Shown here: piece by piece, positions 2,393 to 7,571 of the stretch
How positions within the stretch are numbered: the stretch's first letter is position 1
How the letters are laid out: each line of letters begins with the position of its first letter
Assembly: GCA_021818285.1 (NCBI GenBank)
Contig: JAKAEO010000004.1
Coordinates: 1-53,590 of the forward strand
Source of the DNA: Myxococcales bacterium
GTDB taxonomy: Bacteria; Myxococcota; Myxococcia; Myxococcales; Anaeromyxobacteraceae
Direction: 5' to 3'
DNA: 53,590 nucleotides
Made by a program: the position numbers and the translations under genes
The notes under the pieces: generated by a model
What the model was told of the DNA's origin: nothing
The model's database searches: none
What the model saw: only the letters and a program-made list of their open reading frames with translations

Positions 2393-3244
2393 CTAGAGCC
2401 CTCTCGGGCTCGCTCCCACCAGTCGCGCGCCGGACAGCCCGCTCGGCCGGACGGTCACCCAGGACGGGTGGGCCCGGTTGTCGAGCAGGATGGCGTCGGC
2501 GCGCTTCCCGTCGGCGCGGAGCGCCGCCAGGACCGCCTTCAGCCGTTCCAGCTTGGGCGCCGTGTCACCGGTGCCCAGCCGCACTTGAAGCCCCTCCTCG
2601 CCGGCGTAGACGGTGACGCCGTCCACGCCGTCGAGGTGGATCTCGGAGAGGGGCAGCGCCCGGTCGAGGCCGGCGGCCGCCCAGGCGCCGGCGAGCTGGA
2701 GGGCGCCGCCGAGCAGCGCCTCCACGTCGGCGCGCCGCTGCACGTAGTCGTCGCGGCTGAACCCGGTGACCAGCGGCAGGTCCAGCCCGTCGCCGGGCAG
2801 GGCCCGCTTGAAGACCCGGGCCTCGCGGTCCACCAGGTAGAGGCCGCCCAGGTCCACCAGCGCCGCCGCCTCGCGCTCGGTCACCCGGACCTCCAGGGCC
2901 GGGGGCCAGCGGCGCCGGACCTCGACCCGCTCCACCCAGGGCTCCCGGGCCATCGCCCGCTCCACCGCCTCGACGTCGGCGAGGAGCAGGTTGTCGCCGC
3001 GCTTCACCGGCGAGCGCTCCAGCAGCTCGTCGGCGGCGGCCGAGGAGAGGCCGGAGAAGCGGATCTCCCGGATGCGCATCGCCTCGCCGGTGGTGAGCCA
3101 GCGCCAGCCGGCCCAGCCGGAGGCCGCCAGCGCGGCGAGCAGCGCCAGCGCGACGGCGCGGCGGCCGACCGCGCGCGCGGTCCGCGCGGCCGAGGCCGCC
3201 TGCTGTGCGCGATCGACGCGCCTCCGGTTCCGACCCCGTCCCAC
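2393..3244 (-). CDS. ftsQ: Cell division protein FtsQ (POTRA domain)
   Basis: FtsQ is a bitopic inner-membrane divisome protein linking cytoplasmic and periplasmic division proteins. The 283-residue product has an Arg-rich cytoplasmic N-terminus, one membrane helix (about 29-50, AVALALLAALAASGWAGW), then a POTRA domain beginning MRIREIRFSGLSSAAADELL, followed by the FtsQ beta domain. The start is GTG at 3244. The gene is cut off from the upstream dcw genes by a block of plus-strand genes, so ftsQAZ must use a promoter in 3245-3447 or read-through from elsewhere. I could not pick a convincing minus-strand promoter there. Confidence 0.93.
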   Translation of the reverse strand: MGRGRNRRRVDRAQQAASAARTARAVGRRAVALALLAALAASGWAGWRWLTTGEAMRIREIRFSGLSSAAADELLERSPVKRGDNLLLADVEAVERAMAREPWVERVEVRRRWPPALEVRVTEREAAALVDLGGLYLVDREARVFKRALPGDGLDLPLVTGFSRDDYVQRRADVEALLGGALQLAGAWAAAGLDRALPLSEIHLDGVDGVTVYAGEEGLQVRLGTGDTAPKLERLKAVLAALRADGKRADAILLDNRAHPSWVTVRPSGLSGARLVGASPRGL

Positions 3245-3382
3245 GCACCGCCCCCAGCACCCCGCCCGCCCACGCCCGCTAGCAGGCGCTATCGCCCGGC
3301 TGTCGAGGATGCCCCATCGATCGGCGAAGGCAAGTTTTCGATGCCACGGCGCTTTCCGGTGCCGGGGGGGCGATATCGGAAG

Positions 3383-3411
3383 TTGACCCGGCCGGGACCT
3401 GCATCGATGAT
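3383..3411 (+). promoter_or_regulatory. Candidate sigma-70 promoter for the cytochrome cassette
   Basis: TTGACC at 3383-3388 is followed, after 17 bp, by GATGAT at 3406-3411. That matches the -35 box at 5 of 6 and the -10 box at 4 of 6 positions. It points toward the trihaem cytochrome gene whose ATG is at 3448. The surrounding 203-bp gap also separates the divergent ftsQ start. Assigned by eye only. Confidence 0.45.
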
Positions 3412-3447
3412 GGTCCGCCGAAACCCCAGCATCGAGAGGTCACACGC

Positions 3448-3774
3448 ATGGAGTGGAGGCACCTGTTCGTCGTGGCGGTCGGAGCCGGCATCCTCGGGGT
3501 GGCGGGAGGGGTGGGGGCGGCGGGGAGGAGCCTGGCGCCGATCCCGCAGGAGCAGGCGGTCTCCACCCACGGACCGTTCGAGATGGGCGACTGCGGCACC
3601 TGCCACGTGGGCAGGGCCCCGAGCCCGGGCAAGCTGCTCAAGCCTGCGAGCGAGCTGTGCCTCGACTGCCACGAGGAATTCGCGGCCCAGGTGGCGAAGC
3701 ACCCCCGGGTGAAGGGGAACTGCACCATGTGCCACTCGCCGCACAACGCGCGGAAGAAGAAGCTGCTGCTGTGA
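3448..3774 (+). CDS. Small trihaem c-type cytochrome (doubled CXXCH family)
   Basis: This is a 108-residue exported electron-transfer protein. An N-terminal hydrophobic stretch (about 6-26) is a signal peptide or anchor. Three haem-binding motifs follow: CGTCH at 49-53, CLDCH at 71-75 and CTMCH at 92-96, ending in a Lys-rich tail. Its whole mature part resembles the first module of the ten-haem cytochrome encoded just downstream (shared pattern GDCxxCH, LCxxCHEEF, CxxCHxPHN, KKLL). The two are probably a duplication. An AGAGG ribosome-binding site precedes the ATG. It is the first gene of a four-gene plus-strand block inside the dcw cluster. The redox partner cannot be told from sequence. Confidence 0.9.
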   Translation: MEWRHLFVVAVGAGILGVAGGVGAAGRSLAPIPQEQAVSTHGPFEMGDCGTCHVGRAPSPGKLLKPASELCLDCHEEFAAQVAKHPRVKGNCTMCHSPHNARKKKLLL

Positions 3775-3922
3775 GTGGACGGGGGCGCCTCTCCGACACC
3801 GCCACAAACCGCCGGGTGACCCCCATCAAGGCGCGAGGGGGCCTCCTTGTCCTAGATCCGCACGAACCCACCGCATTTCGATTGCGGTTCCCCGACAGGG
3901 GATTCCCCTGGGAGCACGCCCG

Positions 3923-5005
3923 ATGGCTTCGCGATCCTTCCGACTGGTGACCGTGCTGGCAGCGCTCGCGACGGCGCCGGGCGCCCTCGCCGCGCCGGCC
4001 AAGGGCCCGCGCGCCTCCACCAAGCACAGCTTCAAGGTGAACCTGGCGCCGCTGCCGCCGAGCGAGAAGGCGGCCTGGAGCCACGCGCCCTACGAGGCCG
4101 GCGACTGCAGCATCTGCCACGTGAACGCCGACCCCAAGAAGCCGGGGCCGGTGGCCAAGGCCGGCAACGACCTCTGCTACTCCTGCCACGAGGAGTTCCA
4201 GGAGGTGATGGCCCGCAAGTACAAGCACCCGCCGGCCACCGAGAGCTGCCTGAACTGCCACAACCCGCACAACTCGAAGGAGAAGAAGCTGCTGGTCGCG
4301 GAGCTGGGCACGCTCTGCAAGGACTGCCACCGGCAGATCAAGGACCTGGCCGAGAAGTCCAAGGTGAAGCACGGGGCGCTGGACCAGGGCGAGAAGTGCG
4401 CCAACTGCCACAACCCCCACGGCGCCAACATCGAGAAGCTGCTCATCCAGCTGCCCTTCGACCTGTGCGTGAACTGCCACTCGGTCGACAACATGAAGGA
4501 CCACAACGGCGTCACCCTGACCAACTTCAAGAAGTGGCTGCAGGAGAACAAGGTGTGGCACGCGCCGGTGGCGGCCAAGGACTGCTCCGCCTGCCACCGC
4601 ACCCACGGCGGCGAGAACTTCCGGCTGCTGGTGGCCGAGTACCCGGCCAAGTTCTACGCGCCCTACGACCCGAAGAACTACGCGCTGTGCTACGGCTGCC
4701 ACAACGAGAAGGTGGTGTCGGTGCCGGAGACCAAGACCCTCACCAACTTCCGCGACGGCACCCGGAACCTGCACTACGTGCACGTGAACAAGCCGGACCG
4801 CGGCCGCACCTGCCGCGCCTGCCACGAGGTGCACGCCTCCAAGCAGCCGCACCACATCCGCGACGGCGTGCCCTACGGCCCCAAGGGCTGGATCCTGAAG
4901 ATCAACTACACCAAGACGCCGACCGGCGGGCAGTGCGCCAAGACCTGTCACGAGACCAAGTCCTACGTGAACCGTCCCGCCGCCGGCGGGCCGGCCAAGC
5001 GCTAG
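3923..5005 (+). CDS. Multihaem c-type cytochrome with nine CXXCH and one CX3CH site
   Basis: This is a 360-residue exported cytochrome with a signal peptide ending near AAPAKG (about residue 24). Haem motifs are at 62-66 (CSICH), 85-89, 109-113, 132-136, 159-163, 182-186, 221-225, 256-260 and 297-301 (CRACH). A tenth CAKTCH at 338-343 has three spacer residues. The motifs come in pairs with a CxxCHxPH...LL pattern, typical of the doubled-CXXCH cytochrome families used in periplasmic or outer-surface electron transfer. The ATG at 3923 follows GGGAG at good spacing, and the gene lies 148 bp after the trihaem gene. Number of haems is read from motifs; localisation beyond export is not shown. Confidence 0.9.
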   Translation: MASRSFRLVTVLAALATAPGALAAPAKGPRASTKHSFKVNLAPLPPSEKAAWSHAPYEAGDCSICHVNADPKKPGPVAKAGNDLCYSCHEEFQEVMARKYKHPPATESCLNCHNPHNSKEKKLLVAELGTLCKDCHRQIKDLAEKSKVKHGALDQGEKCANCHNPHGANIEKLLIQLPFDLCVNCHSVDNMKDHNGVTLTNFKKWLQENKVWHAPVAAKDCSACHRTHGGENFRLLVAEYPAKFYAPYDPKNYALCYGCHNEKVVSVPETKTLTNFRDGTRNLHYVHVNKPDRGRTCRACHEVHASKQPHHIRDGVPYGPKGWILKINYTKTPTGGQCAKTCHETKSYVNRPAAGGPAKR

Positions 5006-5024
5006 GCGGTCGAGGGAGCCGCAC

Positions 5025-5858
5025 GTGAAGAGACGCCTCCTGCTCTGGGCCCTGGGGGGGGCTCTCTCCGGGGTCATCTGGCCCCTGGCCGGGTTCGCCT
5101 TCGCCAACGTGGAGGTGGGGCAGGTCCTCCAGAACGAGGACATGCCCACCCTCGGCGGCGGCCACGCGCCCTTCCTCTCCCGCAAGGCGCTCGCCAACGT
5201 CTTCATCTTCTTCCGGCCCAACCAGGACCACTCCCTGGCGACCCTGAAGGCCATGGCCCTCTGCGAGAAGGAGTTCGCGCAGAAGCCGGTGCGCTGGGTG
5301 GCGGTGGTCTCCGACTCGGCCGAGAAGGCGGCGGTGCAGGCCACCGTCGCCGAGGCCGGGATCCAGATGCCGGTGCTGGTGGACGAGGGCGACCACCTCT
5401 ACGGCAAGCTCGGCGTGCGGCTCCACCCGGTGGTGGGCATCGCCGACGACAAGTTCCAGCTCGTCGCCTACGTGCCCTTCCACGAGATCAACTACTGCGA
5501 CATGGTCCGGGTACGGATCCGCAAGGCGCTCCACGAGGTGGACCAGGCGGCGGTGGATCGCGTCGACAACCCGCCCAAGGCGCTGATGCCCGACGACATC
5601 CCGGGCGCGGTCGCCAAGCGCCACGTGAAGCTCGGCGAGCTGCTGCTGAGGAGCCGGAGATGGGACAAGGCGGCCGAGAACGCCCGCTTCGCCATCGAGA
5701 AGCTGCCCGCCTACGCCCCGGCCCACGCGCTCCTCGGCAACGCCCTCGCCGGCCAGGGCCGCTGCGCCGAGGCGGGCAAGTCGTTCGAGACGGCGCTGCG
5801 GCTCGATCCCGCCAACCAGGCGGCGGCCGCGGGCCGGAAGGGCTGCGCCGGGAAGTGA
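5025..5858 (+). CDS. Exported redoxin-like protein with C-terminal TPR, lacking CXXC
   Basis: The 277-residue protein has a signal peptide (about 1-27), a thioredoxin-fold AhpC/TlpA-like domain (about 30-170) and a tetratricopeptide-type helical region (about 195-275). Where TlpA-like proteins carry CxxC after a WATWC-type strand, this one reads IFFRPNQDHS (61-70), so the usual dithiol site is absent. Four cysteines remain (80, 158, 247, 274). The next gene encodes a paralogue with cysteines at matching places. The gene starts 19 nt after the ten-haem cytochrome, so the two are probably co-transcribed. A role in cytochrome maturation, thiol sensing or scaffolding is possible but not shown. 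Confidence 0.82.
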   Translation: MKRRLLLWALGGALSGVIWPLAGFAFANVEVGQVLQNEDMPTLGGGHAPFLSRKALANVFIFFRPNQDHSLATLKAMALCEKEFAQKPVRWVAVVSDSAEKAAVQATVAEAGIQMPVLVDEGDHLYGKLGVRLHPVVGIADDKFQLVAYVPFHEINYCDMVRVRIRKALHEVDQAAVDRVDNPPKALMPDDIPGAVAKRHVKLGELLLRSRRWDKAAENARFAIEKLPAYAPAHALLGNALAGQGRCAEAGKSFETALRLDPANQAAAAGRKGCAGK

Positions 5859-5899
5859 GCTGCGGCGGCCACCGGGCCGCCCGCCGGGGGGAGGGGAAC

Positions 5900-6658
5900 G
5901 TGCGCATCGCTTCGCTGGGGCTGGCCGCGCTCGCGGCCGGGCTGCTCGCCGCGCCTGCCGCGGCGGCGGCCCACGTGGAGGCCGGCCGGCAGCTGGAGCA
6001 GCTGGAGCTGCCGGCGCTCGGGGGCGGGCGGCTCCCCCTCCTCGGCAAGGGCGCCCTCGACGTCCTGGTCTTCTTCCGGCCGGGGAACGAGCGCTCCGCC
6101 GACACCCTGGAGCGGCTGGCCGAGTGCGAGCCGGCGCTGGCCGCGAAGCAGGTGCGGGTGGTCGGGGTGGTCTCCTCCTCCGCGCCGGCCGGCGAGGTGC
6201 GGGCGGCGGTCGACCGGGCCGGGCTCCGGGCGCCGGTGCTGGTGGACGAGGGGGACGCGCTCTACGGCCGCCTCGAGCTGCGCCAGCACCCGGTGGTGGT
6301 GGTGGTGGACCGCCGGCACCGGGTGGCGGCGGTCGAGCCCTACCAGCGGCTGCGCTACTGCGAGATCGTGAAGGCGCGCATCGCCTTCCTGCTCGGCGAG
6401 ATCGGCCAGGCGGAGCTGGACCGGGTCCTGGCGCCGCCCAAGGCCGAGTTCCCGACGGCGGTGGCCGGCGGCGGCGCCGGGCGCTACGTGAAGCTCGGGG
6501 AGCGGGAGCTGGCGAAGGGCAACTGCGCCCTGGCGGTGAAGGCCTTCGACCACGCGCTGGCCATCGACCCCCGGCACCCGGGGGCGCTGGCCGGCAAGGC
6601 GCGGTGCGCCGGCGGGGCGGCCGCGCCGGCGAAGCCCGGGGCGCCCGCTACCCCTTGA
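5900..6658 (+). CDS. Second exported redoxin-TPR paralogue, lacking CXXC
   Basis: The 252-residue product resembles the preceding gene's product along its length: signal peptide (1-24), redoxin-like domain with VLVFFRPGNERS in place of the CXXC loop (about 55-66), then a shorter TPR region. Cysteines at 76, 154, 209 and 236 align with those of the neighbour. GTG at 5900 is chosen because a GGGGGAGGGG ribosome-binding site precedes it and the signal peptide follows directly. The stop codon at 6656-6658 overlaps the 3' end of the convergent ddl gene by 11 bp. Exact function is unknown. Confidence 0.8.
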   Translation: MRIASLGLAALAAGLLAAPAAAAAHVEAGRQLEQLELPALGGGRLPLLGKGALDVLVFFRPGNERSADTLERLAECEPALAAKQVRVVGVVSSSAPAGEVRAAVDRAGLRAPVLVDEGDALYGRLELRQHPVVVVVDRRHRVAAVEPYQRLRYCEIVKARIAFLLGEIGQAELDRVLAPPKAEFPTAVAGGGAGRYVKLGERELAKGNCALAVKAFDHALAIDPRHPGALAGKARCAGGAAAPAKPGAPATP

Positions 6659-7571
6659 GGGCGGCGCCCTCCAGCAGCCGCTCGCAGAGGTCGGGGAAGG
6701 GGATGGCGTTCCCCGCGGCGATCTTCGGCACCAGGCTGGTGGCCGTCATCCCCGGGAGCGTGTTCACCTCCAGGATGTACGGCGTCCCCCCGGCGAGGAT
6801 GAAGTCCACCCGGGCCACGCCGGCGCAGCCCAGCGCCGCGTAGGCCGCCTCGGCGGCGCGCGAGGCGGCGGCGGCCTCGCCGGCCGGGATGCGGGGCGGG
6901 TAGTGGTAGGCCGTCATCCCCGGCGTGTACTTGGCGACGTAGTCGTAGAACTCGCGGGTCGGGACGATCTCGATGGCGCCCAGCGCCACCCCGTCGAGCA
7001 CCGCGACGTTCACCTCGGTGCCCTTCACGTAGCGCTCGACGATGACGCCGCCCTTGTAGCGCGCCGCGTCCTCGCAGGCGGCGGCGAGCTGGGCCGGGTC
7101 CCGGGCGATGGCCACCCCCACCGAGGAGCCCTCGCCGCCCGGCTTCACCACCGCCGGCAGGCCGAAGGGCAGGTCGCCGGGCCCGATGCGCCCGGCGCGC
7201 GCCGCCGGGAAGGCGCGGTAGTCGATCACCGCGAGCCCGTGCTCCCGGAAGAGCAGCTTGGACATCACCTTGTCCATGCCCAGCGCCGAGGCCAGCACCC
7301 CCGACCCGGTGTAGGGGATGGCCATCGCCTCCAGCAGCCCCTGGATGGCGCCGTCCTCGCCCCAGCGGCCGTGCAGGGCGTTGAAGGCCACCTGCGCCCC
7401 CATGGCCCGCAGCCGCGTCGCCACCTCCAGGTCCACGTCGAGCAGGACCGCGTCGTACCCCCGGGCGCGCAGCGCCTCGGCGCAGGCCTGGCCGGTGTGG
7501 AGCGAGACCTCGCGCTCGCTGGAGCGCCCCCCGTAGAGCACCGCCACCTTGGCGTTCTTCCACTTCCCCAT
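6648..7571 (-). CDS. ddl: D-alanine--D-alanine ligase
   Basis: Ddl is a cytoplasmic ATP-grasp enzyme joining two D-Ala to give the dipeptide that MurF adds to the peptidoglycan precursor. The 307 residues begin MGKWKNAKVAVLYGGRSSER, the DdlB-type N-terminus. They contain the ATP-grasp stretch VVKPGGEGSSVGVAIA and the C-terminal metal/substrate motif EVNTLPGMT. An open frame continues upstream to 7820, but ATG 7571 has a clear GGTGGAGG ribosome-binding site and matches the family start. It is the last dcw gene before the cluster is interrupted. Its 3' end overlaps the convergent redoxin gene by 11 bp. Confidence 0.96.
   Translation of the reverse strand: MGKWKNAKVAVLYGGRSSEREVSLHTGQACAEALRARGYDAVLLDVDLEVATRLRAMGAQVAFNALHGRWGEDGAIQGLLEAMAIPYTGSGVLASALGMDKVMSKLLFREHGLAVIDYRAFPAARAGRIGPGDLPFGLPAVVKPGGEGSSVGVAIARDPAQLAAACEDAARYKGGVIVERYVKGTEVNVAVLDGVALGAIEIVPTREFYDYVAKYTPGMTAYHYPPRIPAGEAAAASRAAEAAYAALGCAGVARVDFILAGGTPYILEVNTLPGMTATSLVPKIAAGNAIPFPDLCERLLEGAALKG

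Follow-up and report, generated by a model that had tools for sequence, protein, structure and literature searches.

The window, as the stretch of DNA analyzed here is called, spans an entire contig (C306; JAKAEO010000004.1, 53,590 nucleotides) of a Myxococcales genome of the family Anaeromyxobacteraceae (assembly GCA_021818285.1, here G000). Within its division and cell wall (dcw) cluster, four genes, termed cytA, cytB, rdxA and rdxB, lie between ddl and ftsQ on the opposite strand. This cassette is best explained, with reasonable though incomplete confidence, as an autonomous periplasmic multihaem module that entered a permissive ddl-ftsQ junction once, in antisense orientation and beside an ftsQ promoter that already existed, and was then inherited vertically with non-catalytic ResA-like/tetratricopeptide repeat (TPR) partners. 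Comparative sequence data thus point to a stable lodger with an evolutionary life of its own and not to a link between respiration and division. A description of the cassette was not found in those parts of the open-access literature that were searched.

A first-pass annotation had placed four genes between ddl and ftsQ, on the strand opposite to these two, and all were confirmed in position and orientation. cytA (3448-3774, + strand) encodes a c-type cytochrome of 108 residues, predicted to be exported, with three CXXCH haem motifs. The product of cytB (3923-5005, + strand), also predicted to be exported, is a c-type cytochrome of 360 residues with ten haem sites: nine CXXCH motifs and a CX3CH sequence (C338-x3-CH) that was invariant across 17 relatives. 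CytA and CytB matched Paired_CXXCH_1 (PF09699) at 50.8 and 157.1 bits, respectively, against a gathering cut-off of 20.6. Since CytA is 48% identical to residues 40-126 of CytB, the N-terminal haem region, it may be a partial cytB duplicate. Together the two proteins would carry electrons in the periplasm. rdxA (5025-5858, + strand) encodes a putatively exported protein of 277 residues with a ResA-like thioredoxin fold that lacks the catalytic CXXC, followed by a C-terminal TPR region; rdxB (5900-6658, + strand; GTG start) encodes a shorter exported paralogue of 252 residues with the same ResA-like/TPR composition and 44% identity to RdxA.

The flanking genes, ftsQ (2393-3244) and ddl (D-Ala-D-Ala ligase, 6648-7571), occupy the − strand. 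ftsQ and the cassette start divergently across a 203-bp intergenic region, and rdxB and ddl converge with an 11-bp tail-to-tail overlap, such that the rdxB stop lies within the end of ddl. Pfam and NCBIfam matches confirmed ftsA, ftsQ, ddl and murB, and murG-murC-murB-ddl-ftsQ-ftsA were ordered on one strand with the ddl-ftsQ junction as the sole interruption. The same arrangement was observed in two single-contig relatives (G003 and G022) and is therefore real and not an assembly artefact. Recent foreign insertion was ruled out by GC content at third codon positions, which was 0.94-0.98 in the cassette and 0.96-1.00 in dcw genes, and by the presence of the cassette in relatives. Plasmid carriage was likewise rejected: searches against plasmids yielded a single weak match (24.5%) for CytB and nothing for RdxA.

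To define the distribution of the cassette, 24 species genomes of the family were searched for cytB and hits were mapped against the dcw genes. cytB was present in 18 and, in 17 of these, was located in the ddl-ftsQ gap, always antisense to the dcw genes. A cassette that includes one or more redoxin genes was observed at this position in 14 genomes (G000, G001, G002, G003, G005, G006, G008, G010, G011, G014, G017, G021, G022 and G023), and cytB alone, with neither cytA nor rdx, in three (G004, G016 and G019). Some drafts carried only one flank on the cytB contig (the ftsQ side in G001 and G014, the ddl side in G023 and G016); in G014, a redoxin gene followed by ddl was found on a separate contig. 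Orientation was identical in all dcw copies, and the order cytA-cytB-rdx was kept in nearly all full copies; G010 has no recognizable cytA and a single redoxin gene. The remaining cytB-bearing genome, G015, has an empty ddl-ftsQ gap and carries cytB-rdxA-rdxB on another contig. The cassette was absent from six relatives, comprising genus g6 (G007, G012 and G018) and three genomes of genus g3 (G009, G013 and G020). In all seven family genomes without cytB at dcw, the cluster was ordered wherever it could be read.

The ddl-ftsQ junction is unusual among dcw junctions in the family. All others measured were no longer than 247 bp; an empty ddl-ftsQ interval spanned 107-124 bp and an occupied one 1.35-6.1 kb. 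Unrelated genes, named here from reading of their sequences without confirmation by family searches, fill this gap in G009, G013 and the outgroup G028 and adjoin the cassette in G006, G010, G011 and G022. They include multicopper-oxidase-like and other genes (G009 and G013), a transposase-like gene (G006), an HNH-like gene (G011), a lipoprotein-like gene (G022), a response-regulator-like gene (G010) and a YbaK-like gene (G028). In two g3 genomes (L057, 3984-8499; L059, 2406-8167), the place of the cassette is taken by other genes, among them ones for large multicopper-oxidase-like proteins in opposite orientations.

A predicted ftsQ promoter block was identified at 3287-3334 (− strand), consisting of TTGCCT (3333-3328), a 16-bp spacer and CATCCT (3311-3306), followed by GGCGATAGCG. 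Immediately downstream of the predicted −10 is a conserved element, GGGCGATAGCGCC-GGAAGCG (3277-3297, − strand), which, with up to three mismatches allowed, is found nowhere else in the window. This element is kept through the family and may be an operator or leader element. Equivalent −35-like and −10-like hexamers followed by GGGCGATAgCGCC-GGAAGCG were observed 36-82 bp before the ftsQ start in 23/23 readable family genomes, although the hexamers are less distinct in part of the g5 genomes. G000 has a single occurrence of the combined pattern, at 3287-3334. In the empty gaps of g6, the block comes directly after ddl. The predicted ftsQ promoter thus very probably existed independently of the cassette, and the insertion very probably fell between the ddl stop and this promoter, which probably made the junction a permissive site. 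The first-pass annotation had proposed that the insertion forces ftsQAZ to have a promoter of their own. Since the block is conserved with or without the cassette, including in cassette-free relatives, the cassette did not force it, and the causality is likely the reverse. One study (PMC3265435) describes the entire dcw cluster of Escherichia coli as one transcription unit, and operon structure may therefore differ among bacteria. On the cassette side, a candidate promoter, TTGACC-17-GATGAT (3383-3411, + strand), is shared with the closest relative G001 only; unlike the ftsQ block, this upstream sequence is not conserved past close relatives. A palindrome near cytA, CGATATCG, occurs in several genera at inconsistent positions.

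ResA works in cytochrome c maturation, and its structures were the best Protein Data Bank (PDB) matches to the RdxA model (mean pLDDT 86), with target-normalized TM scores up to 0.88. The term redoxin-TPR, given to these proteins previously, is accordingly apt for the fold and the TPR region, but the chemistry that it implies is probably wrong. RdxA and RdxB scored below the cut-offs for AhpC-TSA (PF00578; 23.2 and 22.6, respectively, against 26) and Redoxin (PF08534; 20.6 and 21.5 against 26.6), and CXXC was missing in 27/27 aligned members, which makes thiol catalysis unlikely. The expected CXXC site, after the core strand where the first helix begins, was placed using the RdxA model and the alignment; it is mostly Q-x-x-S, and two cysteines were found there in none. 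The only invariant cysteines, C247 and C274, are both in the TPR region.

The association of rdx with cytB was also observed beyond the family. A single-protein scan of genome contigs recovered only three true relatives. Across a sample of 195 Myxococcota genomes, 171 of them outside the family, cytB was found in 24 and rdx in 19, and all 19 rdx genomes were within the 24. Outside the family, the four rdx genomes all fell within the six that have cytB (chance probability 4e-7, a value that ignores relatedness), and the two genes were adjacent in 4/4 (L051, L114, L117 and L118). These pairs of 10-haem and redoxin genes are far from dcw, in families f8, f10, f13 and f31. In L117 the module has four genes, the first of them for a 5-haem protein, and lies between folP-like and ftsH-like genes (named by reading). 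Two further members of the Rdx family were noted: an extra paralogue in G000 (C242; L109, 46-876), which starts near a contig end and has no cytochrome genes alongside in the stretch read, and one in G163 (L116, 8542-9567), downstream of genes for a cbb3-type oxidase and FixG/FixI-like proteins, a setting in keeping with a function in the biogenesis of cytochromes or oxidases.

RdxA and RdxB would be non-catalytic partners whose binding to the cytochrome, or to the apo-form, serves its assembly or docking without thiol exchange. A sharper form of this role, drawn by analogy with ResA/CcmG, which have a thioredoxin fold, and with CcmI/NrfG, whose TPR binds the apocytochrome, makes them chaperones dedicated to the maturation of CytB and perhaps specifically of its unusual CX3CH haem site. 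The ResA fold match, the TPR domain, the linkage to cytB outside the family and the invariance of CX3CH favour such a function, and a chaperone role is plausible because NrfG/CcmI use their TPR domains to bind NrfA at its C-terminal region for the transfer of haem (PMC12285233). However, the missing CXXC leaves no means of thiol reduction, and rdx-less genomes keep the CX3CH motif, such that rdx is not needed for this site, if haem is attached there. The proposal is accordingly tentative, and the data agree equally well with a docking or structural role. More speculative still is the suggestion that the Rdx proteins form a new class of non-catalytic ResA-like chaperones that hold a single decahaem cytochrome while it is loaded with haem or docks, and whose loss allows the partner sequence to drift.

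The history of the cassette was addressed with gene trees. A tree of concatenated dcw proteins gave ((g6,(g1,(g2,g4))),(g5,g3)), with g6 placed at an SH-aLRT support of 89%. The cytB tree broadly follows it, recovering g2, g4, g1 (plus G015) and g5+g3, with deeper differences such as g2 branching first. These trees indicate a single old insertion followed by vertical inheritance and several losses, and thereby refute a random insertion in one genome, which the first-pass annotation had entertained for the case that close relatives lack the cassette; a gene-order comparison showed the opposite, as the insertion is old and stands at dcw in 17/24 family genomes. The simplest reading places one insertion in the family ancestor, or early within the family. 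The cassette would later have been lost from g6 and from the G009/G013/G020 group, and reduced to cytB alone in G004/G016/G019. Alternatively, the gain may have come later and been combined with transfer. The G015 cytB falls inside g1 beside G002 (support 99/97), and monophyly of g1 without it was rejected (p-AU 0.0075, for a group chosen after the tree was seen). This position, together with the different locus, suggests lateral reacquisition of the G015 cassette. Relative to G011, the ratio of cytB to dcw distances was ∼3.1 in G004, G016 and G019 and 0.6-1.9 elsewhere, although the skewed amino acid composition of these three cytB rows may inflate the higher value. At these loci (L053, L054 and L055), the lone cytB outpaces its dcw neighbours yet retains all ten haem motifs. 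Faster evolution of lone cytB is consistent with relaxed constraint once its partners were lost.

Several points weigh against a single insertion of a module with Rdx partners. No full-length rdx was found in G004, G016, G019, G117 and G118, which retain cytB, in the first three with all its motifs; the Rdx partner is thus not obligatory, and this speaks against a strict chaperone role. Rdx-family members are also found away from cytB. With g6 placed at only 89% SH-aLRT, the cassette may have been gained after g6 had split off, and its long conservation at a single site might in principle be due to selection for position. Finally, g6, without a cassette at dcw, branches with cassette-bearing genera, as might be expected had the cassette entered the gap repeatedly, in separate genera. 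Such a hotspot would also fit with the entry of unrelated genes into the gap and with the lateral movement seen in G015. By contrast, the shared orientation of all copies, the near-constant gene order and the largely congruent cytB and species trees argue for one event, and repeated entry is considered unlikely.

The single-insertion reading treats the dcw position as a permissive junction and not as a sign of a division role. The first-pass annotation had alternatively raised a link between extracytoplasmic electron flow and division or wall synthesis; in an extended form of this idea, the position would be under selection because it allows co-regulation with ftsQAZ or ddl. Retention of one place in 17 of the 24 genomes, the divergent start with ftsQ and the overlap of rdxB with ddl could be cited for such coupling. 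However, the cassette runs towards ddl and away from ftsQ and thus shares an operon with neither; the module is located elsewhere in the four other families and in G015; the dcw cluster of g6 and of the three g3 genomes, where readable, stays ordered without it; and the ftsQ block looks the same whether or not a cassette is present, with cassette-side sequence conserved only among close relatives. A division link is therefore unlikely, and selection of the position for co-regulation highly improbable. Least credible of all, and hardly tenable, is the view that RdxA and RdxB are active thiol-disulfide or peroxide-reducing redoxins, which their weak AhpC-TSA/Redoxin matches and fold would allow but which the Q-x-x-S in most members and the confinement of invariant cysteines to the TPR region oppose. 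In a separate observation, G030 (family f8) encodes two divergent FtsA homologues, L069 (C128) and L070 (C131), 54% and 49% identical to the FtsA of the window, of which only L069 sits in a dcw cluster.

In summary, the ordinary explanation of the position is an old insertion at a permissive junction, and the cytB-rdx pair is most worth following. A tightly conserved, essential cluster can carry a respiratory module unrelated to it for as long as a whole family has existed, likely because the promoter for the downstream half of the cluster was very probably already at the junction. The pair itself, a decahaem cytochrome with a ResA-like/TPR protein that lacks catalytic cysteines, is directly testable and, should Rdx prove to be a chaperone, bears on how bacteria assemble many-haem cytochromes.

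Comparison with known systems places the module beside several of them. CytB resembles the MtrA/DmsE decahaem cytochromes (as in MtrCAB) in its periplasmic type, approximately ten c-haems and paired CXXCH repeats, and its best PDB sequence match was 6r2q chain A, which we take to be MtrA, although the PDB text gives another label; an AlphaFold model of CytB (pLDDT 30) was not used. It differs in its tenth site, CX3CH, and in scoring far under the DmsE cut-off (87.8 bits against 192.2 for TIGR03508; 76 against 325 for NF041028), and an MtrAB-type conduit was ruled out by the absence of an MtrB/PioB barrel (PF11854) from all 24 family genomes. The f8 cytB-rdx locus (L051) recalls the porin-cytochrome complexes of Geobacter: next to the pair lie a protein with 14 haems that matches PF09698 (Geobacter CxxxxCH...CXXCH family), a second multihaem protein and a 465-residue protein without a Pfam match, a candidate porin or barrel. 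This one locus points weakly to electron transfer, possibly extracellular. The window cassette is without such neighbours, and a candidate set of porin, periplasmic and outer-surface multihaem cytochromes was found only in f8. The Rdx proteins are like ResA/CcmG in being exported, in having a thioredoxin fold (TM 0.88 to ResA) and in being encoded beside c-type cytochromes, and unlike them in lacking the catalytic CXXC, in being fused to TPR and in often occurring as two or three tandem copies. With the NrfG/CcmI chaperones they share, by analogy only, TPR and a c-type cytochrome setting, to which they add a thioredoxin-like domain.

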